A DNA stretch of 64,000 nucleotides, from positions 1 through 64,000 of IMG/VR virus record IMGVR_UViG_3300028734_000023; one strand, 5' to 3'. The position numbers and the translations under genes are program-made. The notes beneath the pieces are model-generated. The model made no database searches. It was not told where the DNA came from and worked only from the letters and a program-made list of their open reading frames with translations. This DNA comes from a virus. Shown here one piece after another: positions 11,156 to 64,000 of this stretch (the first letter of the stretch is position 1; every line of letters begins with the position of its first letter).

Positions 11156-11527
11156 ATGGAAGTAATACAACACTTCGTTCGTAATGACGACCATGATGAA
11201 TTATACATTATGGAAATTGAAGGGAAAGCTTATGCTAGGATGTATTGATTCCATGATGATCCAAAATCAGTTTACTTAAACTCTTTAAGTGTTGAGAATA
11301 ACGAAAGAGAACAAGGACTTGGAACTAAAATGCAGGAACTAAGAGAGAAAATAGGAATAGAACTCGGAGCTACACAATCCTTTTTATGAGTTAAACGGGA
11401 TAGTTGAATGTATGAATGATATACCCGAAGAGGTTATAACGATTTCTCAGATTACACAGATGATGATAGTATGATATGAATGATTAAAATGTTAAATGAT
11501 AACAATACTAAATACAAAGAAGACTAA
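11156..11527 (+). CDS. GNAT-like acetyltransferase, visible only with TGA as Trp
   Basis: 123 aa, interrupted by five TGA codons in the standard code and with no TGG at all. With TGA = Trp it reads as a small GNAT fold: strand (ELYIMEIEGKAYARMYW), then LNSLSVENNEREQGLGTKM, which matches the acetyl-CoA binding motif (R/QxxGxG/A), then a helix and WMYEWYTRRGYND, the usual GNAT C-terminal element. Substrate unknown. It directly follows the stop of the upstream gene. Confidence 0.75.
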
Positions 11528-11675
11528 ATCTACAATAACATTATTTCTATCTAATTATCAAGAAATAATAATTACAAGATCAACTCCAGAGAATGATGAA
11601 TATTATATAAATAAATGGACTAATTTTTACAAAGAATATGGACAAACAATTAAAGAGAACTCTCAAGAAGCTTAA
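11496..11675 (+). CDS. Hypothetical protein, 59 aa
   Basis: ATG at 11496, TAA ending 11675, overlapping the GNAT-like gene by 32 bases and the next gene by 38 bases. Soluble, with a strand-like N-terminus and the segment YYINKWTNFYKEYG (Trp TGG). Nested overlaps are common among early phage genes, but conservation is untested. Confidence 0.5.
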   Translation: MITILNTKKTKSTITLFLSNYQEIIITRSTPENDEYYINKWTNFYKEYGQTIKENSQEA

Positions 11676-11793
11676 CAATTATAAGATTAGATTACTTATC
11701 GAATTAGAATGTGATCCAGATCTTAATGTTAACGATGCATTACGTAAACTAAATAAAGTAGACAAACTAATAAATAAATTAAATGGAGAATAA
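11638..11793 (+). CDS. Hypothetical basic protein, 51 aa
   Basis: ATG at 11638, TAA ending 11793. Helical and Lys/Leu-rich (MDKQLKRTLKKLNNYKIRLL), coiled-coil-like. It overlaps both neighbours, as does the next gene. Function unknown. Confidence 0.5.
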   Translation: MDKQLKRTLKKLNNYKIRLLIELECDPDLNVNDALRKLNKVDKLINKLNGE

Positions 11794-12004
11794 CTTAGAC
11801 AAAGCAACAGTACAACACTATAATAAACTAACAGTAGAAGATGTAGAAAAAGTTCTAGCTTCTATGCCAGATAATCCATTCGACTATCCTAAGTATTTGG
11901 GAGAAGGAATCTATGAAATATCCAAAGGATGTTTCACAGGACAAAGAGGAATGGAAGAATTTAATAAATCACTAACAGACCACATAAAACAATGGCACTT
12001 ATAA
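11783..12004 (+). CDS. Hypothetical protein, 73 aa
   Basis: Acidic soluble protein with VEDVEKVLASMPDNPFDYP and GMEEFNKSLTDHIKQWHL. It overlaps the 51-aa gene by 11 bases and the next gene by 13. Not recognised; typical of the early small-gene run. Confidence 0.65.
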   Translation: MENNLDKATVQHYNKLTVEDVEKVLASMPDNPFDYPKYLGEGIYEISKGCFTGQRGMEEFNKSLTDHIKQWHL

Positions 12005-12255
12005 AAGAAGATCTAACAGCAGAGGTTAGACTATATGAACTAACAGATGATATACTAGATAAAATATATAATATTGATTGTATACTTTCTAAAGTTAGAT
12101 CAGAAATGACAAGACTATCAGAAGCAAGTCTTATTGATTTAGACTTATCTACAAAAGATGTAAACAAACTATATAAATTTAAACAAGTAACAGATAGTTT
12201 ATATGCAGCACTCCAAGAACTTCGAGGAGAAATAGAAGAATTTAATAATGAATAA
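11992..12255 (+). CDS. Hypothetical helical protein, 87 aa
   Basis: Almost entirely helical and acidic, with heptad-like Leu/Ile spacing over residues 15-80, so a coiled-coil dimer is plausible. It overlaps both neighbouring genes by 8-13 bases. No family recognised. Confidence 0.7.
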   Translation: MALIKEDLTAEVRLYELTDDILDKIYNIDCILSKVRSEMTRLSEASLIDLDLSTKDVNKLYKFKQVTDSLYAALQELRGEIEEFNNE

Positions 12256-12685
12256 TAAATATTATACACCAAAAGTAGAAGAATTTCATGTAGGATTTGA
12301 ATACGAAGAATTTATAAATTTTGATATGTTACTTATTAGATCAATAGATCATGAAGATGATATTATATGGATTAAAACACATCTTGATGTAAATATGACT
12401 TTTGAATTTATGGAGATTCCATTTAAAATAATGAGAGATTGTATAAGAGTTAAATACTTAGATAAAGAAGATATAGAAGATTTAGGGTTTAAATTTCATG
12501 AACATTTATACGGAGCATCTCAATATTTTTATAAAGATATAAAATTACATGATAGAGGATTTGGATTAAGTATATATTCATCTAAACATATAATAGATGC
12601 ATCACAAGATGAATGTTTATTTAATGGACTAATTAAAAATAAATCGGAACTAAAAGTATTACTTAAACAATTAAATATTTCTTAA
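12248..12685 (+). CDS. Hypothetical protein, 145 aa
   Basis: Acidic alpha-beta protein starting MNNKYYTPKVEEFHVGFEYE, with several aromatic-rich strands. I have the impression that phages encode short proteins of this type with a FHVGFEYE-like N-terminus, but I cannot name a family or function. It overlaps the upstream gene by 8 bases. Trp is TGG. Confidence 0.7.
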   Translation: MNNKYYTPKVEEFHVGFEYEEFINFDMLLIRSIDHEDDIIWIKTHLDVNMTFEFMEIPFKIMRDCIRVKYLDKEDIEDLGFKFHEHLYGASQYFYKDIKLHDRGFGLSIYSSKHIIDASQDECLFNGLIKNKSELKVLLKQLNIS

Positions 12686-12787
12686 ATGCAAAACGATCTT
12701 AAAAACTTTTACGACAACTGGTACTTCTACCAAGAATATAAAGATAAACCGCACTACCCTGGTGCACACACAATTATATATAAATAA
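12686..12787 (+). CDS. Hypothetical miniprotein, 33 aa
   Basis: ATG immediately after the stop of the 145-aa gene, TAA ending 12787, three bases before the next ATG. Polar and aromatic-rich (NFYDNWYFYQEYK), with an in-frame TGG. The exact fit between neighbours is the support. Confidence 0.5.
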   Translation: MQNDLKNFYDNWYFYQEYKDKPHYPGAHTIIYK

Positions 12788-12790
12788 ACT

Positions 12791-13156
12791 ATGGAAATAA
12801 TTTCTTATCAAAACTACACAACAGTTGCACGATTAAATTCGATACTAAAAGAAGTTGGTATTAATGATAGATTCTTACTAGAACCTATTGAAACACTAAA
12901 CGAACTTGGTGTAAAAATTACAATCCCATCATTAATCACAAACAAAGCTCCTTATTCTATTGAGATTAAGTTAGATTATAAACAAAATAGTTTAACCGTT
13001 TCACAAATAATAGGGTCTATAAACAAAGATTTATCCGACTTACTTAGATCTATTAAACCATCACTTACTAGTTTACTAACTCTACAAAAAGCAATAAATG
13101 GTATAGTAACTATAACAGACATTAACATTACAAACGAAAACTTTAATGCAAACTAA
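12791..13156 (+). CDS. Hypothetical protein, 121 aa
   Basis: Soluble alpha-beta protein with KVGI-type helices and several strands, ending NENFNAN and overlapping the next gene by 11 bases. No Trp and no recognised motif. Confidence 0.7.
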   Translation: MEIISYQNYTTVARLNSILKEVGINDRFLLEPIETLNELGVKITIPSLITNKAPYSIEIKLDYKQNSLTVSQIIGSINKDLSDLLRSIKPSLTSLLTLQKAINGIVTITDINITNENFNAN

Positions 13157-13607
13157 ACTTAAACTAATTACATTATACGCAGTACTTAAAGAAGCTTCTA
13201 AAATTGGAGGAGCAAAATTCAGATATGCAGTTCTTAAGAATTTAAAAAGTATTGATAGTGAAATCGAATCACTTAAAACAATTGAGAAAGATATTGAAGA
13301 AATTATTAAAGATTTCAATGAAGCTAAAAATATTATCATTATGGAACACGGAACTCCAGATGAAAAAGGTATACACGTAGTTAAACCAGGTGACGAGAAC
13401 TTTGAACTAGTTAATAAGAAAATTAAAGATCTAGTTAAAACTCATGAAACTTCTCTAGATCTTTATAGACTTAAACGAGAAGAGTATGAAAAACTTTTAA
13501 AAGAAGATGCTGAATTTGATTTTAATTTATTTGAAATCAATATTGATAATATTCCAGATGAGTTAAAAGATCTAGAAATCTTAATGGACTTCGAGATAGT
13601 AAAATAA
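13146..13607 (+). CDS. Coiled-coil protein, 153 aa
   Basis: Charged helical protein with a probable coiled coil across residues 30-65 (ESLKTIEKDIEEIIKDFNEA) and a second helix near 100-125. The C-terminus is acidic. It is the last gene before a palindrome and promoter at 13627-13688, so it likely ends the early operon. Function unknown. Confidence 0.7.
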   Translation: MQTKLKLITLYAVLKEASKIGGAKFRYAVLKNLKSIDSEIESLKTIEKDIEEIIKDFNEAKNIIIMEHGTPDEKGIHVVKPGDENFELVNKKIKDLVKTHETSLDLYRLKREEYEKLLKEDAEFDFNLFEINIDNIPDELKDLEILMDFEIVK

Positions 13608-13626
13608 TAAACATAAAATTACATAT

Positions 13627-13681
13627 ACTGCTAATTTTCAATAATATTTATATTATAGATTTTTATTGAATTTTTAGCAGT
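13627..13681. promoter_or_regulatory. Long palindrome at the end of the early operon
   Basis: Near-perfect inverted repeat: ACTGCTAA (13627-13634) with TTAGCAGT (13674-13681), continuing inward with TTTTCAATAA and TTATTGAA. It could act as a bidirectional terminator or as an operator, since its right arm runs into the -7 box at 13681-13688. Confidence 0.65.
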
Positions 13682-13688
13682 ATCTTTG
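13681..13688 (+). promoter_or_regulatory. Promoter -7 box TATCTTTG
   Basis: An exact TAnnTTTG match, 25 bases before the start of the 142-aa gene that precedes the suppressor tRNA. It would drive that gene and probably the tRNA. Confidence 0.65.
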
Positions 13689-13712
13689 TAGTATAGAAAA
13701 TGAGAATGATAT

Positions 13713-14141
13713 ATGGAAGAAATACTAAAGAAATTTAATTACAAACCCACAGAAGAAAATACTTGGGTTAAAGGTGAATGGACTGTTAGATTTGATGATG
13801 AACTCGTCGAAGTTTTTAACGATCCTAATAAAAGTGCAGGCGAATATTATAGTTCACCAATTGCAACAGTAGATTTAGAATTAATATTAATGGAAGTTGA
13901 TAGGAAAAATCGCTGACCAATCGTTACTATGGTTACTGATATGATTACCGATGTAAATGCAGAATCAGAAAATGCAACTGGAAATACTTATATAATGTTT
14001 ACTCCTCATAGAGTATGGTTAAAAGATTGGTTAAGGTTATGGGGTCAAGAAGAAAATGGAAGTTATTCTATTACAGGTAACAATATCTTTGTTGTTGATT
14101 CAACACTAAGTAAAGTAATAGATATTACAAAACTAATATAA
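13713..14141 (+). CDS. Hypothetical protein, 142 aa, with an in-frame TGA at codon 68
   Basis: With TGA = Trp one frame runs from 13713 to TAA at 14141. In the standard code it would stop after 67 residues, with a second ATG 12 bases on. Both halves carry TGG tryptophans (five in all) besides the single TGA. The N-half resembles small phage proteins with a GEWTVRFDDELVEVF strand pattern. The gene directly precedes the UCA tRNA, so its readthrough could report on suppressor activity (inference). Two separate genes cannot be fully excluded. Confidence 0.6.
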
Positions 14142-14147
14142 AAGTTA

Positions 14148-14165
14148 GAGGTTCTTTAAAACCTC
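14148..14165 (+). other. Short hairpin upstream of the tRNA
   Basis: GAGGTT/AACCTC with a 6-base loop, six bases before the mature tRNA 5' end. There is no T run, so it is more likely a processing landmark than a terminator. Confidence 0.35.
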
Positions 14166-14170
14166 ATCAT

Positions 14171-14243
14171 ACCTTTGTAGTGTAATGGTTAGCACACAAA
14201 TCTTCAAAATTTGTAAGTGTGAGTTCGAGTCTTACCAAGGGTG
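14171..14243 (+). tRNA. tRNA with anticodon UCA (UGA-decoding, Trp-type)
   Basis: A full cloverleaf of 73 nt: acceptor ACCTTTG/CAAGGGT (one G-U), D arm GTG/CAC with a TAATGGTTAG loop, anticodon stem CAAAT/ATTTG with loop CTTCAAA (anticodon TCA at 14204-14206), 5-base variable loop, and T arm GTGAG/CTTAC with loop TTCGAGT. CCA is not encoded. A1-U72 and discriminator G73 match bacterial tRNA-Trp identity, so charging with Trp is likely. It explains the many in-frame TGA codons in this window. Confidence 0.95.
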
Positions 14244-14261
14244 CAAAATGATAGAATAAAT

Positions 14262-14828
14262 ATGAATAGAACAAGTAAAGAAGAATTAGAAAAACTAATA
14301 TTAATAGATAAGTTATCATATGCTGAAATAGCAAGAACATTTGGTGTATCTGATGTTACTATTAGAACCTGGGCAATTAAACTAGGGATAAATATTCCTA
14401 GCCGAAAAAAAATATTGGAAAATAAGATATGTTTAAATTGTAATAATGAATTTAAACCATCTGGAACTACAAATAAATATTGTAGTCAACAATGTTCAAA
14501 TGAACATAAAATAATTTTAAATTATGAAAAATATAAATTAGATAATTCCATACTTTATGGACAATCTAATATGTCAAATTATAAAAAACATTTTTTAAAA
14601 GAACAAGATTATAAATGTACAATTTGTGGAAATCCGAATACTTGGAATGATAAAGAATTGGTATTTGTTTTAGATCACATTGATGGTAATGCTGATAATA
14701 ATGAACGTAGCAATTTAAGGTGTATATGTCCTAATTGCGATAGTCAACTTGATACATTTAAATCTAAAAATAAAAATAGTGCTAGAGCAAAATACAGACA
14801 AACTTTAAAGGTGGAGGAATGTGTATAA
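14262..14828 (+). CDS. HNH homing endonuclease with N-terminal HTH
   Basis: 188 aa. The start at ATG 14262 is preferred over a GTG inside the tRNA 3' end. An N-terminal HTH (LSYAEIARTFGVSDVTIRTW) is followed by a treble-clef-like Cys cluster (ICLNCNNEF, YCSQQCS), then an HNH domain with CTICG, the LDHIDGNADNNERSNLR core and a second CPNC zinc pair. Such proteins are mobile free-standing endonucleases. Both Trp codons are TGG. It lies directly downstream of the suppressor tRNA. Confidence 0.88.
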   Translation: MNRTSKEELEKLILIDKLSYAEIARTFGVSDVTIRTWAIKLGINIPSRKKILENKICLNCNNEFKPSGTTNKYCSQQCSNEHKIILNYEKYKLDNSILYGQSNMSNYKKHFLKEQDYKCTICGNPNTWNDKELVFVLDHIDGNADNNERSNLRCICPNCDSQLDTFKSKNKNSARAKYRQTLKVEECV

Positions 14829-15007
14829 TGACCGAACTAGAACAAAAAATAATAGAATTAAGAAAAGAAGGATTAAGTTATAGAAATATTCAAATAAAAT
14901 TAGGTAATCCTTCTAAAAAATTTATAAGAGAAACACTTTTACAATACACTCCGGATTTAGTTGGAGATATAGTAAAAAATTATAATAAACTAGAACCTAA
15001 ATGGTAA
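14828..15007 (+). CDS. Small HTH protein, 59 aa
   Basis: The start ATG overlaps the HNH stop (TAATG); an ATG at 14819 in the same frame is an alternative adding MCI. The sequence IIELRKEGLSYRNIQIKLG is a helix-turn-helix of the resolvase/homeodomain-like type. Probably a small regulator or a detached HTH of the endonuclease. Confidence 0.6.
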   Translation: MTELEQKIIELRKEGLSYRNIQIKLGNPSKKFIRETLLQYTPDLVGDIVKNYNKLEPKW

Positions 15008-15083
15008 CTAAGAAATAGTGTAAGGTATATGACAACAGGGATTCTATATCCATTAAATGATAATCTCATATCAACCAAGCACC

Positions 15084-15114
15084 AAGCCCATTATCAAAAG
15101 TAGTGGGCTTTTTT
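15084..15114 (+). terminator. Rho-independent terminator
   Basis: Stem AAGCCCA/TGGGCTT followed by a run of six T in total. It separates the tRNA-HNH unit from the reductase gene. Confidence 0.9.
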
Positions 15115-15175
15115 AATAATTAAATAAACAATTAGAGGAAACAAACAGAAACTCTTAATTAAAATTAAACAAAGA

Positions 15176-17440
15176 ATGAACGCAGGAAAGAAATTTTTGA
15201 GTGACTTAAAACTTCACTCTGACTACTTAAAGTGGAGACCAGAAGAAGGTCGATACGAAACATGGAATGAAGCATGTGAGTCTATAATCAATGGTCATAA
15301 AGATCATTATGCAGATGTAGACCTAAGTAAAGAATTAGAATACGCATTGAAATATATGCAATCTAAAACGGTACTAGCTTCACAACGAAATCTACAGTAT
15401 AGAAATGAGCAGATCGAACGTAACAATGCAAGACTTTATAATTGTTCATCTATGTATGCTGCTAGAAATAAAATATTCCAAGAAGTATTTTACTTAGCAT
15501 TAAGTGGTTGTGGTGTAGGATTAGGATTACTTATTCCTTTTGTGAATAACATTTCACAAGTAAATAAAAGAACTAAAGGGACTAAAACATTTATTGTTCC
15601 CGATTCAATTGAAGGATGGTCTGATGCATTTGGTGTATTGATGTCATCATTCTTCATTGATAAACAACCTTTTCCAGAGTATGCAGGATACGAAATTAAA
15701 TTTGACTATTCAGAAGTAAGAGAAAAAGGTGCATTCATTAGTGGAGGATTCAAAGCTCCAGGACCTGATGGTTTAAAACAATCATTTGAAAAGATCGAAG
15801 AGTTCTTAAATAAATGGATTACATCAGAAGGCACTAAACTAAGACCAATCGCTGTATGTGATATTCTATGTCACATCTCAGACGCAGTATTATCAGGTGG
15901 AGTTAGACGTTCTGCTCTTAACATGATTGTTGATCCAAATGATGATGAAATGATTAATGCTAAAGTTGGTAACTGGAGAACTAATAACCCACAACGTGGA
16001 AGAACAAATAATTCGGTGTTACTTCTTAGAAGTTTAACCGGAAAAGAAGAATTTGAAAAGCTTGTTAAAATGAATGATGGATATTCTGACATTGGTTTTG
16101 CATTTGCTAACTCATGGTTTGATATGTTCAATCCTTGTTTCGAAATTCTTAAACACCCAATTCTTCATTCAAAAATTAGTACAAAAATAAATGATGTATC
16201 TTATGATAAGATAGAAGAATTTATTAGAGATAATGAAGACAAACTAGGTGTAGCATTCTGTAATCTTTGTGAGATTAATGCAGAACAATGTGATATAGTT
16301 GAGAATTTTTATTCTGCGTGTATTGCTGGTGCAATCATTGGAACACTACAAGCAGGTTATACATCATTTCCTTATCTTGGAGAAACCACTGAAAAGATTG
16401 TAAGACAAGAAGCTCTATTAGGAGTATCTGTTACAGGATGGATGAATAACCCAATGTTGTTTAACACCGACATTTTAAAACATGGTGCATCTTTAGTTAA
16501 AGAAACAAACAAGACAATAGCTGAAAAGATTGGAATTAATCAAGCTGCTAGAACGACATGTGTTAAACCATCGGGTAATGCATCTGTAGTATTGGGAACT
16601 GCGTCAGGTATTCATCCTGAACATTCTCAAAAGTATTTTAGAATCATGCAACTAAACAAAGAAAACGATACAGCCAAATGGTTGAACAAACATATGTCTT
16701 ATCTTTTAGAAGAAAGTGTTTGGTCAAGTACTGGATCTGATTATGTTGTATTTGTTCCTATTGAGAATCCTATTGAGGGATTATATAAGAAAGACGTAAA
16801 AGGTGTTAAACATCTTGAACTAATAAAACTAGTACAATTAAATTGGGTAAATGAGGGAACTAATCGCGATCTATGTGCATATCCTGATGTGAATCATAAT
16901 ACATCTAATACTGTTATTGTTGATGATCAAAAAGCTGTTATAGATTATATTTGGAATAACAAACATGACTTTACAGCAGTATCCTTTATATCTGATTACG
17001 GAGATAAAGATTTTACACAAGCTCCATTCACATCTGTATCTTCATTAGATCAACTAATGAGTGACTATGGAAAAGGTGCATTATTCGCATCTGGATTAAT
17101 TGTTGATGGACTACATTATTTTAACGACAATCTTTGGATTGCTTGTGATATGATTAAAGATAAATCAGTTCCTATTACTGGAACAAGAGAACAAGTAATG
17201 CTTAAGAAATATTGGTTGGCTAGAGCAAAGAAATTTGCTAACAACTTCTTTGGAGGAGATTTACAAAAGACTGTATATTGTTTAAAAGATGTACATCTAT
17301 TTCATAAATGGGAAGTAATTAATAGACAATTTAAACCAGTTGACTTTGGAGAGATTCTAAACAAGCCAACATATAAAGACATTAGTGACACAGCGGCCCA
17401 AGCTTGTAGCGGAGGTTCATGTGAGATCACTAGATTATAA
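15176..17440 (+). CDS. nrdJ: Adenosylcobalamin-dependent (class II) ribonucleoside-triphosphate reductase
   Basis: 754 aa, about the length of the monomeric Lactobacillus-type RTPR (about 740). It reduces ribonucleoside triphosphates to dNTPs with a vitamin B12 radical. Visible landmarks are NCSSMYAA near residue 90 (first redox Cys), SGCGVGLGL, SGGVRRSAL, FCNLCEINAEQC near 362 (radical and second redox Cys) and the C-terminal CSGGSCEI pair that is re-reduced by thioredoxin-like donors. All 14 Trp codons are TGG, so the enzyme can be made without the suppressor tRNA. It provides DNA precursors for phage replication and precedes phoH. Confidence 0.95.
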   Translation: MNAGKKFLSDLKLHSDYLKWRPEEGRYETWNEACESIINGHKDHYADVDLSKELEYALKYMQSKTVLASQRNLQYRNEQIERNNARLYNCSSMYAARNKIFQEVFYLALSGCGVGLGLLIPFVNNISQVNKRTKGTKTFIVPDSIEGWSDAFGVLMSSFFIDKQPFPEYAGYEIKFDYSEVREKGAFISGGFKAPGPDGLKQSFEKIEEFLNKWITSEGTKLRPIAVCDILCHISDAVLSGGVRRSALNMIVDPNDDEMINAKVGNWRTNNPQRGRTNNSVLLLRSLTGKEEFEKLVKMNDGYSDIGFAFANSWFDMFNPCFEILKHPILHSKISTKINDVSYDKIEEFIRDNEDKLGVAFCNLCEINAEQCDIVENFYSACIAGAIIGTLQAGYTSFPYLGETTEKIVRQEALLGVSVTGWMNNPMLFNTDILKHGASLVKETNKTIAEKIGINQAARTTCVKPSGNASVVLGTASGIHPEHSQKYFRIMQLNKENDTAKWLNKHMSYLLEESVWSSTGSDYVVFVPIENPIEGLYKKDVKGVKHLELIKLVQLNWVNEGTNRDLCAYPDVNHNTSNTVIVDDQKAVIDYIWNNKHDFTAVSFISDYGDKDFTQAPFTSVSSLDQLMSDYGKGALFASGLIVDGLHYFNDNLWIACDMIKDKSVPITGTREQVMLKKYWLARAKKFANNFFGGDLQKTVYCLKDVHLFHKWEVINRQFKPVDFGEILNKPTYKDISDTAAQACSGGSCEITRL

Positions 17441-17456
17441 ACTTAACAAACAATTT

Positions 17457-18167
17457 ATGGGAAAAGGCACACGAGAAAAGCGTACTGAGAAACGCGAGAA
17501 AAACAGATTACCCGAAAAACAATCTAACTTAGTAAATGATTTCAAACCAAAGAATGAGAAACAACAAGAGTTTATTAACCTTATAAATGATAGAGAGATT
17601 ATCATTGCTACAGGTCCTGCTGGAACAGGTAAGACATATGTAACATTAGCAACAGCTTTATCATTATTAGGTTCAATCTATAAAAAGGTTATTCTTGTAA
17701 AGTCAGTAACTACTATTCCCGGAGAAGAAATAGGATTCCTTAAAGGTGGAATGGAACAGAAAATGGAACCATTTATAATGTCTTATATGTGAAATATTGA
17801 TAAGATCTGCGGAGATAAATCTGCACAGAACTTACTTGATAAAAAAATAATTGAAGTATTACCACTAGCTTTTATTAGAGGTTTATCAATTGATAATGCT
17901 ATTGTAATAATCGATGAAGCACAAAACATAGATAATCATACTTTTAAAACAATGATGACTAGAATTGGAGAAAACTCAAAATACATTCTTCTTGGAGATA
18001 GTGAACAAATAGATAGACGTAAGAAAAGCGAATCGTGTTTAGCGAAAGTTATTGAGATATTTACTGATTCAGATATTATTGGATCAATAGAATTTAAAGA
18101 TGAGGATTGTGTGAGAAATCCAATCATTCCTATAATTTTATCTAAACTAAGAGAGAACGGAATCTAA
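17457..18167 (+). CDS. phoH: PhoH-like ATPase
   Basis: 236 aa with one in-frame TGA (17790) read as Trp. Walker A is IIATGPAGTGKTYV (about residue 53), Walker B is AIVIIDEAQNID, followed by a Q-rich sensor region ILLGDSEQIDRR. PhoH ATPases are frequent auxiliary genes in large phages; their helicase or phosphate-related role in phages is not settled. The start at 17457 is preferred to ATG codons inside the reductase gene. A strong terminator follows 5 bases after the stop. Confidence 0.92.
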
Positions 18168-18172
18168 GTTAT

Positions 18173-18200
18173 AAGGGAGCATGTAAATGCTCCCTTTTTT
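18173..18200 (+). terminator. Rho-independent terminator after phoH
   Basis: An 8-bp stem GGGAGCAT/ATGCTCCC with a GTAA tetraloop and six T. Confidence 0.93.
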
Positions 18201-18292
18201 CTGTATATACTAAAATGTGATTTGTGAGATATATCTTACAATTTTATTTTAAATTTATACATGGTTATTATTTTTATGACAAAAATTATTAA

Positions 18293-18300
18293 TACCTTTG
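18293..18300 (+). promoter_or_regulatory. Promoter -7 box TACCTTTG
   Basis: An exact TAnnTTTG match after the phoH terminator, with TTTTTATGAC about 20 bases upstream as possible -33. It would start the long operon that includes the membrane coiled-coil protein, nuclease and chaperonin genes. Tiny open frames (18311-18376, 21 codons; 18319-18372, 17 codons), each with an in-frame TGA, lie between it and the first gene. Confidence 0.65.
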
Positions 18301-18385
18301 TACAAATATAATGGAGATATGAATATGTATAAATGAAAAATTAAAGTTAAAGACAAACAATTTATTACATAAATAAAGATTAAAA

Positions 18386-18844
18386 ATGACAGAATTACTA
18401 GTAGGCGGTGCAGTAACAATTGCAGTATCAGCATTTACTTTCCTTTTAGGAAAGGGTAAAAATCAAGCTGAAACAGAAAAGCTTGAAAAAGAAACAGAGA
18501 AAATAGAAATCGAGACTAAGTTCGATGAGGTTAAATTACTTAAAGAAATTAATCAAAACTTATCAGATCAATACGAAAAAAATGATAAGAGATGGACTGA
18601 ACGTTACGCCGAAATGGAAAAAAAGTGAATGACTATTGTAAGCCAATATGAAGTTTATAAAACTCAAACTGAAAAACGTATTTGTGAACTTGAAGAAATT
18701 GTAAAGAATCAAGATAGAGATAAATGTTTAGGTGATTTATGTCCTACTAAAATAGAATATAATAAGATCCTAGCAAAAAGATTAGAGAGAAAAAGAAACT
18801 CCGCTATGAAAAAATTTAATCAAAGCGGTACAAAACAGGAATAA
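18386..18844 (+). CDS. Membrane-anchored coiled-coil protein, 152 aa
   Basis: Read as one gene across a TGA at codon 81. An N-terminal hydrophobic segment (residues 4-22) is followed by a long charged coiled coil (about residues 25-145) with a short CLGDLCPT insert that could form a disulfide. The shape fits an inner-membrane spanin-like or holin-associated phage protein. Function not established. It is the first gene of the operon that starts at the 18293 promoter. Confidence 0.65.
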
Positions 18845-18848
18845 GAAT

Positions 18849-19775
18849 ATGGATAATGCGAATGTAAAATTTAATGAATTGAAAGTAGATAAGGAAGATA
18901 GCTGCGTAATGTATAATGACGAGCTCCACAAATATTGGACAAAGAAAACCAATCAAGCGTGTATATCAGCAACTACACTAATCCATAAATTTGGAACATT
19001 CGATCCAATCTTCTGGAGTGCTTATAAAACATTAGAATCACTCATAACAGAAGATGAATTTAAAACAATTAAACCAACTCTTTTAGATAGAAAAAATTTT
19101 AAAGATGAACACTACGAATCCTTTGGTATAACTAAGGAAACGTTTGAAGAAAGAAAAGCCGAAATTCTAAAAGAATGGGATAGAAAACGAGATGAGTCTT
19201 GTATAAGAGGTACAGCAATCCATAAGCAAATGGAAGATGGACACTTAGATGGAAAGACTGCTGAGTTACAATATTTAAATTTGGGAGGTTCGTTTAAAAC
19301 AGACATTACTAACAATCTAAAACCTGGAGAACAAGGTGTTTATCCAGAATTACTTTTAAGTAGAGTATCCGATGATGGGGAACTTAGAATTGCAGGTCAA
19401 GCAGATTTAATAATAGTAGACGGATATGATGTCTACATTTTAGATTATAAGACTGGAAAGAAGATGGATACTAAATCTTATTTCGACCGTAAATTAAAGA
19501 GATCATCTAAAATGAAATATCCTTTAAACAACCTTGATGATTGTAACTTCATGCATTATTCTATGCAATTAAGTTTATATGCTTGGATGATTCAAAAAGC
19601 TAATCCTCTTTTTAATATAAAGATGCTCTTACTTATTCACATTGATCACGACGGTAATGTAAAAAACTATGAGTGCGATTATTTAAAAGCAGATGTGGAA
19701 AGAATGCTTGGATATTATAAAACCCAAATTAAAAATGAAGAATTTAAAAAATCCAGAGAAAAAATTGTATTTTAA
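18849..19775 (+). CDS. PD-(D/E)XK nuclease (RecB/AddB-like)
   Basis: 308 aa. The motifs of the RecB nuclease clan are visible: RGTAIHKQMEDG (His of motif I, near residue 121), then LRIAGQADLIIV and VYILDYKTGKK (the D...DxK catalytic core near 182-202), and a Q/Y motif MHYSMQLSLYAWMI. Such nucleases process DNA ends during phage recombination or degrade host DNA. All Trp codons are TGG. It overlaps the next gene by 41 bases. Confidence 0.88.
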   Translation: MDNANVKFNELKVDKEDSCVMYNDELHKYWTKKTNQACISATTLIHKFGTFDPIFWSAYKTLESLITEDEFKTIKPTLLDRKNFKDEHYESFGITKETFEERKAEILKEWDRKRDESCIRGTAIHKQMEDGHLDGKTAELQYLNLGGSFKTDITNNLKPGEQGVYPELLLSRVSDDGELRIAGQADLIIVDGYDVYILDYKTGKKMDTKSYFDRKLKRSSKMKYPLNNLDDCNFMHYSMQLSLYAWMIQKANPLFNIKMLLLIHIDHDGNVKNYECDYLKADVERMLGYYKTQIKNEEFKKSREKIVF

Positions 19776-20106
19776 AATAGCCGTCGGAATTTTTGTATTC
19801 CTATTGGTGTGTATAGCATTCTCAATACAGAACGACAAATACAAAGTCTTAGATAATAATTATAAGATTGAACAATTAAAGGTTGACAGTTGTAATAAGA
19901 AAATAAAAGCATATGAATTATTGAACAGAAAAGCAGATAGCACTATATGAGTACTAGAGAAAAAGAATGATTCTCTTGGAGATATAAAACCAATAATATT
20001 AATGTACTATGATAAGAAAATTAAAAGTATTAACAGTGCTTCTGCTTATGAGCACGCTCGTTGGATGGACTCAATCGTCACCAAAGTGAACAGTATGAAA
20101 AAGTAA
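19735..20106 (+). CDS. Membrane-anchored coiled-coil protein (inner-membrane spanin-like), 123 aa
   Basis: Read across one TGA. The ATG at 19735 gives a basic N-terminus, a single hydrophobic anchor (residues 11-29) and a periplasmic coiled coil with RKADSTIWVLEKKNDSL. Its 3' third overlaps, in another frame, a signal-peptide gene (20009-20461), an arrangement known from nested Rz/Rz1 spanin pairs. The downstream partner is not a typical Rz1, so the lysis role is inferred. Confidence 0.6.
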
Positions 20107-20461: not shown

Positions 20462-20715
20462 CACAAGGGTTCTTCAATGAACTAATGAATAAAGAAGCAG
20501 AAACACACACCAAACGAATGATTCATTGTAAACAATGTAAATTGTTATATAATGATAGTTTGTTTGGAGAAACATGTAATTCTGAATTATATGTAAATCC
20601 GGAAACAAATGAAGTTTCTACAACAGATAAACCAGGATTTAAGAATGGATGCGGATGTATCCTTAGATCCAAGACACGAGTACCAGATGCACACTGCCCT
20701 TTAGGCAAATGATAA
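20440..20715 (+). CDS. Small cysteine-rich putative zinc-binding protein, 91 aa
   Basis: The gene ends ...GKW (TGA) then TAA. Cysteines occur as HCKQCK, ETCNSELY, NGCGCILRSK and AHCPLGK, enough for one or two zinc sites. The pattern C-G-C-x(2)-K near a final CPLGKW is shared by many small Bacteroidota phage proteins as I recall them. It overlaps the previous gene by 22 bases. Function unknown. Confidence 0.7.
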
Positions 20716-56146: not shown

Positions 56147-56156
56147 TCTATAATAT

Positions 56157-56465
56157 ATGTATTTAACAATCGAACAAGCTAAAAAACACTTGAATCTGGA
56201 AGCAGAATTTATTGAAGATGATATTTATATCACTTCACTAATTCAAGTGGCAGAAGCAACTGTTGAATTACATATAAATCAAAAATTAGTTGATGTTGCT
56301 GCAATTAATGGTGAGGTTCTACCCTTGCCATTATTGCACGCAATGCTTTTAATGATTGGTAATTTATATGCAAACAGGGAAATGATAAGTTTTGCAAGTA
56401 AAACTACAGAAATACCTTTTAACTATAGATACCTTTTAGATTTTTACAAAAACTATTCAAACTAA
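56157..56465 (+). CDS. Head-tail connector (gp6-like adaptor)
   Basis: 102 aa starting MYLTIEQAKKHLNLEAEFIE, followed by DDIYITSLIQVAEATVELHI, a clear HK97 gp6 / DUF3199-type adaptor, and ALLMIGNLYANREM. It binds the portal to extend the DNA channel. Position right after the capsid gene is standard. Confidence 0.9.
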   Translation: MYLTIEQAKKHLNLEAEFIEDDIYITSLIQVAEATVELHINQKLVDVAAINGEVLPLPLLHAMLLMIGNLYANREMISFASKTTEIPFNYRYLLDFYKNYSN

Positions 56466-56471
56466 ATTTAT

Positions 56472-56792
56472 ATGATACCAGCGGGAACACTGTTATATAG
56501 TTTAATATTTAAAGAAAATCAAACTGTACAATCTGAATCGGGAGCAGTTACAAAACACTTAACTGAACTACTTAAATGCAGAGCAGCTAAAGTTAAACAA
56601 TCTGGTAATTACTCATTAGATTCTAAAGAATTATTTCATAGTAATACAATAGCTTTTAAGATTAGATATAATAAACTATTATCTGAATTATTAATTGTTG
56701 AATATGAAAAGAATGATTATAAAATAAACTCTTTTGATAGAAATCTATTTGATAATTCAATTGATATTATACTAGAAAAAATTAATAAATAA
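56472..56792 (+). CDS. Head closure / head-tail joining protein
   Basis: 106 aa, beta-barrel pattern (IPAGTLLYSLIFKENQTVQ, LKCRAAKVKQSGNYSL, IAFKIRYNK, LLIVEYEKNDYKI) of SPP1 gp16 / HK97 head closure proteins (phage_H_T_join). It follows the adaptor in the conserved order. Confidence 0.82.
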   Translation: MIPAGTLLYSLIFKENQTVQSESGAVTKHLTELLKCRAAKVKQSGNYSLDSKELFHSNTIAFKIRYNKLLSELLIVEYEKNDYKINSFDRNLFDNSIDIILEKINK

Positions 56793-56793
56793 A

Positions 56794-57231
56794 ATGGAAA
56801 TTCAAACTACATTAATTGATTATGATCGAGTTTACAAAGCTATTGATAATCTAAAGGATTTTCAAAAAGATAAAGTTGTAGGTCAAGGTTTAAAAGATGC
56901 AACAGGATTGTTTATTAATGCAGGTAAACAGAATCTAAGAGATAGAATGAAATCCAAAAAAGGTGATTCTGGTAATTTATTGAAGTCTTTTAAAAACAAA
57001 CTAAAACGTTCAAGTTTAGGAGCAATTGCTGGATTCAATCAATTAGGTATGCACGCACATCTTTTAGATATGGGTACACAAGTAAGAACTACTAAAAGTG
57101 GAGCAAACAGGGGGAAAGTAGAAGGTAATAGTTTCTGAAAAGATGCTATTGAATTAAACGAAACCGCTGCAATTGAAAAAGTTTATAGTGGTATTGAAAG
57201 AGCAATTACAAACATAATTAATAAAGGGTAA
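56794..57231 (+). CDS. HK97 gp10-like tail completion protein
   Basis: 145 aa, read across one TGA (EGNSFWKDAIELNE). It has ALKDATGLFINAGKQ-type helices and the HAHLLDMGTQVRTTKSGANRG motif typical of HK97_gp10 proteins (HxxLxExGTxxxxxxG). It joins head and tail during assembly. Confidence 0.85.
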
Positions 57232-57232
57232 G

Positions 57233-57625
57233 ATGATTACAAAAGCATTTACAAAATTTTCAATTACAACAGAATTAAGAAAATTAATTGTTGCAGATAG
57301 TGGTCTAACTAATTGAGTAGGTACTAATGTATTTCCAATAGTTGCACCAGAAGGAACAGAAGGCGATACTATAATTTATTATAGGGAAAAGTACGCTAAA
57401 CAACACACTCAATTTGGAATTTATGAGGAAAAATGTAATGTTACTTTTATAATTGTTTCAGAAGATTATGACAGAAGTATTGCAATAACAGAAGCCTTAA
57501 ATGATTTAATTGAAGGTATTCACCAAAATAAAGACAACTACAATTATGAATGTAGATTAGTAGATTCAATTGAGGATTTAATAGATAAAAAATATATTCA
57601 GACTTTACAGTTTGAAATCAAATAA
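57233..57625 (+). CDS. Tail terminator-like protein (DUF3168 type)
   Basis: 130 aa, absent from a standard-code reading because of one early TGA (DSGLTNWVGTNVF). The strand-helix plan TELRKLIVADSG, VFPIVAPEGTEGDTIIYY, CNVTFIIVSEDYDRSIAITE fits tail terminator/DUF3168 proteins. It is placed between gp10-like and tail tube genes as usual. Confidence 0.75.
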
Positions 57626-57647
57626 CAAACAATAAAACAAAATAAAA

Positions 57648-58091
57648 ATGTCAACATCATATAATTCAAATACCGATTTAGTAAAAGGTAATAACTTAAT
57701 GTTATTTGTAGGCTCAACACCTATTGCATTTGCAAAAACTTGTGATTTATCAATTAGTGCAGCATCAATTGATACAACTAATAAAATGTCAGGAAATTGA
57801 AAAGCTAGTTTAGCTGGACAAATTTCTTATACAATTTCATCAGATTTTTTATATACAACTGTAGCGGGTGATACTTCATTCGATACTCTTTTAGCTAGTC
57901 AAATAGCAGGTAGTTCTGTTAGTTTTACAATTGGACTTGCAGATCCTGCAACTTTTGCATTAACTGGAACAGGTCTTTATACAGGAACAGCACACATTAC
58001 ATCTTTAACTATGAAAGCAGAAGATAATGCAATAGTATCTTGTTCTGTATCTTTAGAAGGTTCTGGTGCTTTGGTTAAAGTGTCAGCGTAA
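57648..58091 (+). CDS. Major tail tube protein
   Basis: 147 aa; one TGA (KMSGNWKASLAGQIS). Beta-rich, starting with LVKGNNLMLFVGSTPIAFAKT, then CDLSISAASIDTTNKM, and ending with SVSLEGSGALVKVSA, the pattern of TP901-1/phage tail tube proteins. High expression is expected; it is followed by a strong terminator. Confidence 0.85.
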
Positions 58092-58106
58092 TAAGATCAA
58101 AAATTT

Positions 58107-58132
58107 AAAAGGCGGTGATTATACCGCCTTTT
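58107..58132 (+). terminator. Rho-independent terminator after the tail tube gene
   Basis: Stem AAAAGGCGGT/ACCGCCTTTT with a 6-base loop. It would raise tail tube over tape measure expression. Confidence 0.9.
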
Positions 58133-58153
58133 GTTTTAAATTCAAATTGATAT

Positions 58154-58792
58154 ATGAATATAAAATTAAACATTAAAAGTATCATCAAATTTGAACAGTT
58201 TACTAATAAATCATTCAATGAAATAGACTATACAAATACAGATGATTTATTGAAATTGATGTACTGTATAGTACTTTCAAACAATCCAGATGTATTTACT
58301 TATGAAGAGTTTTTAGAGCTAATAAAGAGTAAGAAGATAAGCAAAACCATTTCGGATAAATTAAGCACAGAAATTAAATTGATAGATTTATTTGCAAATA
58401 AAGAAGTAAAAGAGGTTACAGAAGAACAACCAGAAAGAGAAGTAATATTTATAAAAGATATAGCTGCAATACTAGTAGTGAATGTTGGATTGGATATAAA
58501 TTTTGTAATGAATGAAATGAGTATAAACGATATTTCTTTATATATGGAAGCCTATAATAAGAGCGTGAAGCAACAAATGGAAAGTAGCAGACTATGAACT
58601 TATTTATCTGTTATACCTCACATAGACACCTCAAAAATAAATAGTCCTTCTAAATTTTATCCTCTACCTTGGGAACTTGAAAAACAATTAGAACAAGATA
58701 AAACAGAGTTCAAAATTATGGCTGAAGAACTTCCAGATATGTTTAAAGCTGGTGCAGATCTAATTGATAAAATAAATAAACAAAAACAATAA
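58154..58792 (+). CDS. Tail assembly chaperone-like protein, 212 aa
   Basis: Read as one frame across one TGA (SSRLWTYLSVIPHID); the standard code stops there, which imitates the G/GT frameshift arrangement of other phages. The first 145 residues are helical and acidic (the G-like part), the second part short (the T-like extension). It sits between the tail tube and tape measure genes, the place of tail assembly chaperones. Confidence 0.75.
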
Positions 58793-58796
58793 TAGT

Positions 58797-61700
58797 ATGG
58801 CAAATAATTTAAGTTTTGGGGTAGCAGTAAATCTACTAACAGAAAATTTTAAAAGAGGTCAAGCACAAATTCAAAACGGTTTTAGAGAAATAAAATCTAC
58901 TGCTTTACAAATGGCTGGTGTACTTGGTGCAGGGCTAGGTTTTGAGCATATTATAAAGGAAATGATAACTGTTGCTAGAGAATCAGCAGCAGTTAACAAG
59001 GCTTTAAAAGTGGCTTCTGGTGGATGAGAAGAATACGGAAAGAATCAAAAATATATAATTGAAACTAGTGAGAAGTTTGGTTTAAGTATAAACGAAATGA
59101 CTGGTGCATTTGCAAAGTTTACAGCATCTGCAAAAACTAGTAATATCCCTTTAAAAGATCAGCAAACATTATTCACCGGATTAAATGCTGCATTGTTAGC
59201 AACAGGTGCAAGCGGTGATAAAAAAGCAGAAGTTTTTGATGCTATGTCAAAGATGATGCAAAAGGGTACAATTCAACTCAAACCCTTAATTGCTGGGCTT
59301 GGTTCTGCTTTACCAGAATCACTTTCAATTATGGCTAAAGCTATGGGTGTATCAGTTGAAAAACTGAGAGATATGGCTAAACACGGTCAATTATTAGCTA
59401 GTGATGTATTTCCTAAATTTGGTGCAGAACTAGAAAAAGCATTTGGTAATGTTGACACCAATACAATAGGTGGTGCTTTAAATAGAATTGGTAACAGTTT
59501 TGAAGAACTAACAGCTAAATTAAATGTGGGTAACATTTATAAAACTATAGTAAATGAAACTTCTGAGGTTTTTAAATGGATAACCGAACACTTTAAATTA
59601 GTTGGTGATACTATTACAAATATAGCAGTAACTATTATTGTAGGTAAAGCTTTTGGAGCTATTAAAAAAGGTTACACATCAATATCAACAGCAGCTACTA
59701 CTAGTTACGTTAAACAGGCTGTAGAAGCAGAAAAAAGTGCAGTTGTACAGGAATTAGCAAATAGTAATTTATCTAAGAAATCTCAAAAAAGATATTTAGA
59801 TGAATCACTTGCAGCAGCAAAATCTTATGCTGAACAAGAAGCAGCAGTAAACAAATTTAGTTTAACCTCTAATTTCGCTTTTAAAACTGTAGGTTTAGCA
59901 ATTAAAACTGCTTTTATGTCATTCTTACCAATGATATTATTTAGTGGTGCAATGGCAATATATCAACACTTTTCAAATCTTGCAGAGAAAGCTAAAGAAC
60001 TAAAAGCAATTTGAACAGATTATAGATCTGGTTTAAAAAATGCAGTTGAAACAAACAGTCAATCAAACGAGATTAAAAACTCTTTGAAGATTGTAAATGA
60101 CACTAATACTTCATTAAAAGAGCGTCAAACTGCACTAAAAACAATAAATTCTATTTTAGGTACTAATTATCAATTTGATAAAAACGGCTTAAAAATCAAC
60201 GGTGATATTAACGTAAAAATCAAAGAGCGTTTAGACCTCTTAGATAAACAAAGCAGGTATCAATATTTACTAAATAAACAGAATCCTAATGATGATAGAA
60301 TTGCCGAAACTCAAAGTAAGATTGATATAATTAATAATCAGTTAGGAAAAGATCTTAATAGTGGCAAAGGTGTAGATAGTGGATTAGTAAAAGAAAGAGC
60401 TGGTTATTTAGATGAACTAACACCTCTATTAAAAGTTAGAGATGATATAGCTAGAGAAAAGAACAAATTAAAATCTGAACTTGGTAAAAATACAGGTGAA
60501 ACAACCGATACTAATTTAAGTGGTTTAGGTGCTGGTTCTGGTGAAGATACTGAAGTACAAAAACATCAAAAAGAAATTGATTCTGTACAAGATGCTTATG
60601 TAAAAGAAACTCAAAAACTAAATAATGAATTAGCTAACGGTGTAATATCACAAAAGAAATACAATGAATTATTTGATAAGCACGTAGAAGATGGTAAAAA
60701 GAATTACGGCGGAATCTTAACGAAAGATGAAGCTAAAACTAATGTTATTTATGGACAAATTCAAGCCTATAAACCATTATCCTCTACTGATGATAAAATT
60801 GAAACAGCTAAAGAAGATTATCTTAAAAAACTAACTGAACAAGACGGATATTTAAAAGATGGTATAATCACACAAGATGAATATACTAATGCTATGTCTG
60901 GTATTGTTGATGAAACATTAAGAACTATTTCAACAATCAAAGGAGTAAATTTTGCGACTAATGATTTAGTGAAAATAGTAAAACAGAAACAAGCAGATTT
61001 AGCTAAAAAAGATTTTGCTTTTGTACTACCTCAGAGTAATCCAATAGATCATACATTTGATTATAAAAAGTCAGATGTTGAAAAACAAGAGGATAAAAAT
61101 CAGCAAAATGACGATTTTATAAAAGCCATTGAAAAAGAATTTAGTGATAAAGGTGTAAAGAATATTGAAAAACAAATAGCTGATGCGGGTGGTGATCTAA
61201 GTAAACTAAAAGCACAGTTTCACGGTCAAGCAGATGATTTAATTGAATCACTAAATAAAGCATTATTAAATGCACCAGACTTGTCCAAAGCATTAAAACT
61301 AATGCAGGTTAAGAAGGATATAAAAGACCTACAGAAACAATTAAATAGTGGTATATACGAGGGTATAAAAAATATTGCTGGTAGTGCTAAAAATATGTAT
61401 GAAGGATTTAAAGCATTAACTGATACACTTAATAATGTAGATGCTTCTGGATTTGAAAAGTTTCTAGCAATATGAGATGCATTAACTAATACGCTGGATG
61501 GTATAATGTCAGTTGTAAAAACTATTAAAGACCTTACAGCAGTAACCACTGCTTTGACAGCAGCAAAACAAACACAAGCAGGAATTGAAGCGGGAACAGC
61601 AGCAGCTAAAATTGCAACCAATGTTGCAGAAACAGCTTCTTATACTGGACTTATGGCAGCAGAAACAGCAGCAGCTTATGCTTTTATTCCCTTTGTAGGT

Positions 61701-62009
61701 GAAGGTTTAGCATTGGCTCAAATTGGAGTAATGCAAGGTGCTATATTAGCTTCAAGTATTCCAAAGTTTGCAAACGGTGGTATTGTACAAGGTGGTTCTA
61801 TTTCTGGTGATAAAATACTAGCTAGAGTAAATGCTGGTGAAATGATATTAAATCAAGGTCAACAAAGTACACTATTTGCTCTTTTAAATGGTCAAGGTGG
61901 TATAAATTGAACTACAACAAATAATAGTGAAGTAAAATTTATTATTGAGGGAAAGAATTTAAAAGGCGTTCTAACTAACTATGATAATATAAAAAGCAAA
62001 GCAAAGTAA
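58797..62009 (+). CDS. Tape measure protein, 1070 aa
   Basis: Four TGA and one TGG Trp codons split it in the standard code. The N-terminus (NFKRGQAQIQNGFREIKSTA, MAGVLGAGLGFEHIIKEM) and ALPESLSIMAKAMGVSVEKL are typical tape measure motifs; a long helical, charged middle and hydrophobic stretches near residues 280-300, 380-395 and 950-980 follow; and near the C-terminus stand FANGGIVQGGSISGDKILARV and NAGEMILNQGQQ. It sets tail length and helps DNA ejection. Confidence 0.92.
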
Positions 62010-62010
62010 T

Positions 62011-64000
62011 ATGATTTACACAGGACAATTTAAAAATATAAGTAACACTTTATATCAAGTGGATATAAATGTGAATGATGGTAATAGTGGAACATCTGAG
62101 ATTATTTTCTCAGATGAACCATTTAAAATCGAATTAAATACAAATAGTACAATTTACGAACCGTTGAAATTATCAAATGCAACTTGTACAATTATATCTG
62201 ATAGTTACAATTTCAACCTTTATTCAGCAACTGCACAAGGTACTAAAATGACTTTGAAAGATGTTGATAATAATCTGATTAAATGAGTTGGTTACTTGAC
62301 ACCAAACATATATACACAAGGCTTTGAACAACATTATGAAAGTATTGAACTTGAAGCAATAGATGGTTTGAGTACATTAGACAATTACAAATTTGAAACG
62401 GTTGATCTGGTAAACAGAAAGATAAAAAGCTTTGAAGATTTATTGATTCATATCATCAAAAAGTGTAATTGCTATTCTAAAATATACGTGAATGAAAACA
62501 ACTATTTACCGGGCTTTGAAGATCAAAAAATCATAGATAAATTACTCGTAGCTGAGCAAAATTTCTTTGATGATAACGAAGCAATAACATACAAAGAAGT
62601 ACTAACACAGCTTCTTCAATTCCTAAACTATACAATTGTAGCAGATGGTGATGAGGTTTATATATTGAACTATGATTATATAAAAGGTGGATTTGTAAAC
62701 TATCATACCTATACTACTGCAAACAATTGGTTGAATTATTCAACTGGCTACACAACATTAAGTAATACAGTAGATGTTACAAATGAAAGTTTTAAATCGA
62801 ATGGTGCTAGTATTGAATTAGCTGAGGTTTATAATCAAGTAAGCATTAAAACCAGTGTAAGCACAAATGATAGTTTGATACCAGAGTTTTTTTCTGATGA
62901 TGATCTAACCAACATTACAAAAGTAACAGGAACAACAAACTGGTTTTCTTCTATTCCTAAAACTTATGGAAGTAAGAACTATGTGTTTAAATATTTCAAA
63001 AATGATAAATACAAAACATATAATAAAACTGGTGGTACTTGGTCTGAATTAACCGAACTTGATTATGATACAATATCAACTAAAGAGGGTGCATCCTTTG
63101 TAAGAATGGCAAACTATGAAAATAATGTAGCATTAAGTTCTTCTGTTAGTTTCTCTGATTATGTTTGTCTTTATAGGTCTGGATATGTTGCACCAACTGG
63201 CGCATTACCTTTACAAACTTGGCTTGACTGTACAAATAATGTTGTACTGAAATATTCATCAAGCAATGAGGGTAGTTATTTTTATGATGATTACTATTTA
63301 ATAATTAGTGGCTCTGCTTATTGGGATTCAGCGGTTAATGTAGCTTATATAGATGAAAGTAAAAAAGCATCTACAGGTGATTATTATTTATCAACTTACG
63401 TATTATTATATGCAAAATTAAAGATCGGAAATAAATACTGGAACGGTTATCAAAAGTATTGAACTAATATTGAAATGACTTTCCCAATTAAGTTTGAATA
63501 CAAAGATGGACATCTTTATAACAACTGGAAAAACATATTAAACGAAGTTGATACAACAGCATTTATAAATGAAGTTGGTAATAAAATAACCATTAAAAAG
63601 GCAGATATGTTATTCGGTGATATTGAGTTTTCATTATATGAACCATCTGAAATATATAAGGGTGGTACTTGTGGTGCTGTATGATTGAAAGATTTTGACA
63701 TCAAGTTAGTTAAACCTACAAGTGAGAAAAAAGCGGAAACAGATACAGAATATAAAAACGTAATCAATACAGCGTTTGTAAATGAATTTTCTGATATGAA
63801 TTTAAAAGTATGTAGTGATACAAATAAAGGATTGAATTATTCATCTGTTATTCAAAAAATAGGTACAGATTATACATACAATCAAAGTATCAAAACAAAG
63901 GCTTTAGGAATTGACCAGAAACAAGAATACAACATTATCCAGTCTTATGTGAATCAGTATTCAACACCAGCCAAAAAACTAAATATAACGCTGGCTAATA
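62011..64000 (+). CDS. Tail tip / baseplate protein, C-terminus beyond the right edge
   Basis: At least 663 residues with three TGA and about seven TGG Trp codons. The N-terminal 250 residues resemble Bacteroides phage distal tail proteins (MIYTGQFKNISNTLYQVDI, LKLSNATCTIISDSYNFNLY, then HYESIELEAIDGLSTLDNY). The rest is beta-rich and Tyr-rich. It directly follows the tape measure gene, as distal tail or tail tip genes do. The gene is cut by the window edge. Confidence 0.8.

Follow-up and report, generated by a model that had tools for sequence, protein, structure and literature searches.

A virus record that most likely joins two phages, both reading UGA as tryptophan, at a shared fibre-tip segment

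Gut phages that use code 4 or code 15 were reportedly described by Borges et al. in 2022, with recoding of late genes and with recoded prophages in hosts of the standard code. For crAss-like phages, Yutin et al. (2021; PMC7886860) report that reassignment affects mostly late genes and that codes change over short distances; the same source already notes a mismatch between recoding and suppressor tRNAs, as well as many group I introns in protein genes. Opal suppression is described for Zeta crAss-like phages such as phage Lera (about 177-180 kb, ~25 tRNAs), which use TGA for Trp mainly in structural genes and carry a TCA suppressor tRNA, and the same text mentions some opal zeta members with no detectable suppressor tRNA (PMC12386605). 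A survey of predicted code-4 phages gives a Sup-TCA tRNA in 11 of 73 and states that 22 of 27 cultured code-4 phages infect Mycoplasma or Spiroplasma (PMC11210395). Here we analysed the first 64,000 bases (the window) of the 64,836-base virus record IMGVR_UViG_3300028734_000023, which a preliminary description had taken for a single phage that reads UGA as Trp with one UCA tRNA of its own. The reading that we favour, at a probability of about 0.88, is that the window holds two phages, A and B, most likely of Bacteroidales, both reading UGA as Trp and joined in one record at a fibre-tip segment (R, 36078..38022, plus strand); relatives uphold the reassignment but not the single phage with its single tRNA, which lies in A. 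Late-gene opal recoding in crAss-like phages is already published, and A is an opal crAss-like phage; less expected are the lack of a recognisable tRNA in B and a split UCA tRNA in two relatives of A. The analysis supports opal recoding in two phages that are unrelated and whose host ranges seem to overlap; with the ownership of the tRNA separated, B and its tRNA-bearing sister could answer how recoded phages without a suppressor work.

The claim that TGA is frequent in frame at Trp sites was borne out both by re-calling genes under tables 4 and 11 and by alignment. For open reading frames (ORFs) of at least 60 amino acids (aa) between 10 and 64 kb, coding cover was 0.943 with TGA read (mean ORF 253 aa) vs. 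0.713 under table 11 (164 aa), and the control codes stayed below the TGA value (0.757 and 161 aa with TAG read; 0.864 and 174 aa with TAA read). We then aligned 13 head/tail genes of B, with pieces more than 98% identical removed; the alignment cells are not independent, since several loci are copies of one record. At B's TGA codons, 391 of 529 cells across all relatives held TGG (191) or TGA (200), and relatives without TGA in the compared stretches, a set in which two relatives use amber and some are just 28-43% identical, held TGG in 132 of 206. B's large terminase (TerL-B) has its TGA codons at residues 85, 269, 275, 396 and 441, and the five sites were TGA or TGG in 23, 26, 28, 26 and 26 of 28 relatives, near copies included. 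Five A genes gave 114 of 145 cells (TGA 84, TGG 30), with no TGA-free relative among them, and eight of the 10 TGA sites of A's terminase (TerL-A) were TGA or TGG in at least six of seven divergent relatives (L008-L014, 60-62% identity); these TerL alignments left out L017 (23 other stops), L047 (9) and some partial loci. The alignment of TGA with Trp that had been predicted was nevertheless partial, and two observations weigh against it: 74 of the 206 cells in TGA-free relatives of B were not Trp (among them Tyr 17, Phe 12, Leu 11), and the other two TGA sites of TerL-A were Phe or Tyr in 7/7 and 6/7 divergent relatives. Misses at TGA sites were mainly Tyr, Phe, Ile and Leu. Taken by homology, these alignments show that UGA means Trp in both phages.

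The preliminary description had placed both terminases and both portals in one phage; we found one set of each in two phages. The left set comprises RNR-like, PhoH, exonuclease and GroEL-like genes, a TerL (phrog_6681) and a portal (phrog_6547), and the right set a serine integrase, replication genes, TerS, a TerL (phrog_9), portal, protease, capsid and tape measure. We regard these as separate phages because of the gene content of relatives and the order in one contig (L163), which matches the window at 100% from 30950 through 38022 and then runs directly into A's late block J, known from the 213,486-base record G001; the same A-R-J order recurs at ~76% in L165-L167 (one sequence, three identical loci). 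Among relatives of A, G003 and G004 carry J-type genes downstream of the portal, at a distance, and G005 has the TerL and portal with no J matches; no structural or lysogeny genes of B were found in any of the three. Among relatives of B, the homologue of window gene 40645, which lies in the segment after R (S, 38022..42665), follows the head/tail genes both in G011 (36 kb) and in G016, the prophage of a Paludibacter metagenome-assembled genome (MAG); the homologue of gene 41961 does so in G011 only, and G016 has a fibre-tip match. G001 holds both TerLs with ~178 kb between them, carries window 36078-42665 at both termini and carries 36075-38022 a third time internally; R occurs in the contexts of both phages, and its copies (window 36078-38022 and G001 182881-184828; 1,948 bases) are 99.95% identical. 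A phage A that consists of window 1-38022 plus sequence outside the window, ~176.6 kb between the R copies of G001, is well supported by these comparisons, and so is a phage B that runs from 36078 to about 64735, taken as a circle of ~28.7 kb (both sizes by subtraction). The near identity of R in a crAss-like phage and a temperate siphophage suggests recent exchange and a common receptor.

How the two came to stand in one record is a matter of weighing. Four contigs begin at 36078 or stop at 36204, and the resulting 127-base overlap looks like a branch of an assembly graph. For the record itself we consider an assembly chimera at R most likely. The alternative is one real molecule: homologous recombination at R between circles A and B could have formed a ~205-kb cointegrate, or one phage could have two head modules. 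One crossover at R would yield the order A-R-S-B-R-J, and G001 shows both S-B-R-J and A-R-S. Several facts weigh against our reading here: A-R-S is seen in three records (this one, G001 and G009), as it could be if a cointegrate were present in part of the population; the native order of A comes from one exact contig and one 76% relative; and G004 has short matches to the fibre end of S and to one small S gene. On the other side stand the A-R-J order of L163 and L165-L167, the relatives of A that lack B's structural and lysogeny genes and the relatives of B that carry S genes at the same place, the contig ends, and the fact that G001 also joins S to bacterial DNA (read by eye as hisB), which matches the expectation for an integrated B. 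We rejected the single phage on the gene content of relatives and on L163, and consider one real molecule of either kind improbable; short of long reads, a real A-B cointegrate would look no different from the chimera.

The UCA tRNA itself was confirmed where it had been described. ARAGORN, Rfam RF00005 (62.9 bits) and our model R1 (64.9 bits) agree on an opal suppressor-type tRNA at 14171-14243 (end 14243/4, plus strand), and A1-U72 and G73 can be read directly from an intact gene. It does not serve as the one tRNA of one phage: its location shows that it belongs to A, and none was found in the right-hand phage B. In the A-relative G005 a UCA tRNA lies close to the homologue of the same gene (13713), and further UCA tRNAs occur in the A-relatives L008, L009 (L099 is the same record), L012, L208 and L221. 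The tRNA-Trp of Paludibacter likewise has A1-U72 and G73, so that charging of A's tRNA by the host TrpRS is plausible on the evidence of these two features; TrpRS (PF00579) and release-factor (PF00472) domains were found neither in G001 nor in G004. The Paludibacter MAG, which carries a 91% relative of B, ends 19 of 112 sampled ORFs of at least 150 aa with TGA, and competition of the UCA tRNA with host release factor 2 (RF2) would therefore be expected.

TGA is unevenly spread over both phages. In the early arm of A (1..9867, minus strand), seven closed ORFs of at least 100 aa contain 0 TGA and 9 TGG and all stop with TAA, and the open ORF 2-1666 contains 0 TGA and 17 TGG. These seven fit the earlier claim that no gene stops with TGA, an absence partly built into table-4 calling; the claim fails in the early region of G001 (plus strand, 48-128 kb), where table 11 gives TGA stops in 11 of 97 ORFs. 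Three of these 11 are ATGA overlaps with the next start, for which reason we take at least three as real, and reading on past an early TGA stop leads to a TAA or TAG after 0-149 codons. The same G001 region, with TGA forced open, holds 26 TGA and 257 TGG. Proportions are mixed at window 10-22.6 kb (12 TGA, 32 TGG) and reversed in the late genes at 22.6-36 kb (38 TGA, 7 TGG) and in block J of G001 (76 TGA, 41 TGG). In B, TGA:TGG is 0:4 in the integrase, 15:3 in the minus-strand operon and 21:7 in 12 closed virion ORFs (24:14 with the open tail gene 62011); R and S together have 4 TGA and 18 TGG. We infer a switch, with the standard code for genes needed first or in lysogeny and the altered code for later ones. 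The early genes of A, which use UGG for Trp and in some cases stop at UGA, would be translated first, with the standard code of the host in force; A would then express the UCA tRNA, presumably charged by the host TrpRS, which would read UGA in structural and other late genes against host RF2. B's integrase is free of UGA, and its replication and virion genes, which contain it, should therefore be silent unless a UGA-reading tRNA is present; either another source in the cell would have to supply that tRNA, or B's own would have to be so divergent that it escapes detection.

We searched B for such a tRNA in several ways. ARAGORN found none, whether introns were disallowed or allowed up to 3 kb; none emerged from Rfam in 35000-64000 at a cutoff of E<=10; and ARAGORN and R1, extended to the final 836 bases of the record, added none. 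The best unfiltered R1 match (12.9 bits over 48 bases, 41881-41928, E ~0.04) lacks a T arm and, by eye, a UCA, and we take it as chance; the intron model R2 gave just an 11.8-bit match, inside a gene. Two conserved non-coding stretches of B, 49231-49545 and 48226-48378, were considered as tRNAs and set aside, as by eye they look like a leader with a terminator and an iteron region. The closest distinct TerL-B relative, G011 (96%), does have a UCA tRNA, which ARAGORN missed and Rfam scored at 45.9 bits; two of its anticodon-stem pairs are mismatched by eye, and it adjoins a 591-aa gene at the place of B's 258-aa gene 48359, for which G011 has no match. Across 15 opal-using B-family records outside the window, several of them short fragments, R1 matched in three (G024, G011 and G033) and not in 12; the Bacteroides neonati prophage G033 has a UCA tRNA (L064 9493-9586) whose variable arm is long and which shows A1-U72 and G73. 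The opal-using Paludibacter prophage G016, whose host has TGA stops, showed no tRNA of this kind. For the Paludibacter host, R1 gave 13 matches (150 of 1193 candidates scored), and none of the 10 examined has UCA. A loose UCA-tRNA pattern was dropped, as it gave 38 to 75 matches per strand and genome in host genomes vs. 13 to 25 in the control. Following an idea from PMC13092985, we also asked whether the host's tRNA-Trp could read UGA by virtue of a 4-bp anticodon stem, and discarded this, the stem of the Paludibacter tRNA-Trp being 5 bp.

That B lacks a recognisable tRNA leaves its decoding unexplained, which also counts against our reading, and several accounts compete. B may have its own UCA tRNA in a form that ARAGORN and Infernal miss, strongly divergent or oddly split: ARAGORN missed the tRNA of the sister G011, two A-relatives conceal theirs with an insert, and divergence is offered as a general explanation in PMC7886860; such a tRNA was looked for with Rfam, R1, R2 and ARAGORN with introns and nothing credible was found, and we put this account at slightly under even odds. 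We are more doubtful that another element in the cell lends B a tRNA that reads UGA, be it a second recoded prophage or A on co-infection. In B as in G016, TGA is retained at Trp sites though no tRNA could be detected, and A and B share a near-identical fibre tip and therefore probably hosts; however, among the matches listed, near-identical A and B TerL contigs have only metagenome 3300031521 in common, and metagenome 3300028650 has A joined to B's S. A bolder extension, that B and its tRNA-less relatives are 'code-dependent' prophages whose lytic genes are translated only if another element, for instance the co-circulating A with its matching fibre tip, brings a UCA tRNA, is a long shot; if true, the genetic code would be the level at which superinfection activates a prophage. 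The least probable account, and a very improbable one, is that the host itself reads UGA as Trp and no suppression takes place. It would suit a B with no recognisable tRNA of its own, yet the TGA stops of the Paludibacter MAG led us to reject it for that host, whose tRNA-Trp has a CCA anticodon with a full 5-bp anticodon stem and whose examined R1 matches include no UCA; A's early genes, moreover, use TGA as a stop.

Two relatives of A illustrate how a suppressor can escape a tRNA finder that is run with standard settings. In G003, the UCA tRNA (L095 14174-13483) is split by a 620-base insert that ARAGORN, run with introns, places after base 33 of the gene, which is U34 in tRNA numbering; the insert encodes a PDDEXK_5 protein (E=6.9e-11), an endonuclease. 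G004 is a 176.9-kb relative whose aligned genes average 44% identity. Read by eye, it has a UCA tRNA with a long variable arm (L083 14520-14838) that a 227-base insert interrupts at the same position; ARAGORN does not call this tRNA even when introns are allowed, and its 5' half scores just 16.5 bits with R1. The code of G004 itself is less sure, with five of 14 in-frame TGA codons aligned with Trp. The two inserts are homologous, with 76% identity across 211 bases; in each case U is the last base of the 5' exon and G the last base of the insert, and the consensus fold of both has 27 pairs, two of them changed on both sides. Segments of the inserts resemble what we take to be the P-Q-R-S core of group I introns; since the Rfam group I model gave no match in L095 13380-14280 (E<=10) or L083 11000-17000 (E<=1), we name the inserts 'group I-like'. 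Among nine contigs with the intron signature, ARAGORN found no tRNA in the stretch scanned in seven, so that only G003 and G004 show one there. The introns that Yutin et al. describe in crAss-like phages lie in protein genes (PMC7886860), and those reported for Lak megaphages lie inside tRNA genes such as Tyr and Thr (PMC6784885); the inserts of G003 and G004, with their group I-like core, lie in a suppressor tRNA. A literature search for a split opal suppressor tRNA found none, which is no proof of its absence from print.

The family of B spans three codes. B-type TerL rows comprise 12 that use TGA, two that use TAG (L047, with a CUA tRNA, and L061) and 10 without reassignment; in the two amber-using relatives, Gln is the residue opposite TAG in 14 of 25 cells and in 11 of 14. 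The TerL-B tree requires at least four code changes, and its starred branches alone force two for the TGA group; L059 (1 TGA, 1 TAG) was left unlabelled, and B. neonati was omitted on account of its interrupted TerL. As far as these sequences show, one terminase family of temperate phages uses opal, amber and standard codes. TerL-B relatives occur on bacterial contigs of B. neonati, P. gordonii, B. congonensis and Paludibacter, and these siphophages have the same TerL-portal-protease-capsid module as B but differ in code among themselves; in the Paludibacter MAG, GC (guanine plus cytosine) content shifts to the host level on both prophage flanks. By these relatives, B belongs to a Bacteroidales-infecting family. 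L064 and L051, which have the same tRNA and TerL arrangement, carry a ~1.6 kb insert in TerL after residue 285. Amber-using relatives are found in both families, some with CUA tRNAs: L047 and L061 for B, and L204, L212-L220 and L222 for the A-type TerL.

The early arm of A continues into the early region of G001, and its middle/late arm (10050..36077, plus strand) was delimited by ORF calls, profile matches and the TerL-portal order of A-relatives. All on the plus strand, the latter holds a DNA-binding protein gene, GNAT (11156-11527, 5 TGA), RNR-like (15176), PhoH (17385), exonuclease (18849) and GroEL-like (20729) genes, TerL-A (26034-28142; 10 TGA, 4 TGG), the portal (28362-30557, PHROG 6547/156) and the N-terminal part of the fibre gene (33627). 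TerL-A matches 128 phage records, which we take to be crAss-like; the best named match is uncultured phage cr115_1 at 29%, and the best identity among records of the phage collection searched is 44%. Loci derived from G001 contain 22 tRNAs and a transfer-messenger RNA (tmRNA) in L074, two tRNAs in L075 and the UCA tRNA in L068. By its gene content A is a crAss-like phage with a large genome and many tRNAs, its size lying in the 145-192 kb given for crAss-like genomes (PMC7886860). A resembles the Lera-type zeta phages in size, many tRNAs, TGA use and a TCA tRNA, a likeness by traits, and differs in its tmRNA gene, a term that occurs 0 times in the main text of PMC12386605. The tmRNA gene (L074 160-566, ~68 kb in G001; tag GNKTISFARTAFMAAA) precedes an array of more than 20 tRNAs. 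Two RAGATH-1 hammerhead ribozymes lie on the minus strand of the early arm, at 4498-4566 (67.6 bits) and 6980-7057 (59.4 bits). A's early intergenic region includes a 155-bp stretch (window 9777-9931) in which three repeats resembling CGTATCATTTGA can be seen by eye; it recurs at 98.7% at the B-host end of G001 (L065 1438-1592).

The sequence of B indicates a temperate HK97-type siphophage, with integrase, TerL, portal, protease, capsid and tape measure. Its segment S (plus strand) holds the end of the fibre gene and small genes, one of them spanin-like (39805, plus strand; weak PHROG match, E=0.0018). A 90-bp element at 43338..43427 is also present in the B-relatives G011 and G016, and its copy in G001 is followed by the bacterial DNA read by eye as hisB. 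The large serine integrase (44029..45750, plus strand; 0 TGA, 4 TGG) was identified by ORF call and profile matches. The recoded replication/early lytic operon (46389..50918, minus strand; ORF calls and PHROG) comprises 11 ORFs with a minimum length of 50 aa, which together contain 15 TGA and 3 TGG; one of them, the 258-aa gene 48359, is DnaD/replication-initiator-like by weak matches, and another (49545) is an HNH gene. The head/tail module (51095..64000, plus strand; ORF calls and PHROG) contains TerS, TerL-B (51562-53175; 5 TGA, 3 TGG), portal, protease, capsid and tape measure (58797) and ends in the open tail gene 62011 (3 TGA, 7 TGG). Adjoining the integrase of this recoded phage is a gene for a tRNA_SAD protein (alanyl/threonyl-tRNA editing-like; 43452..43904, minus strand; Pfam PF07973, E=1.2e-10), which has 0 TGA and stops with TAG.

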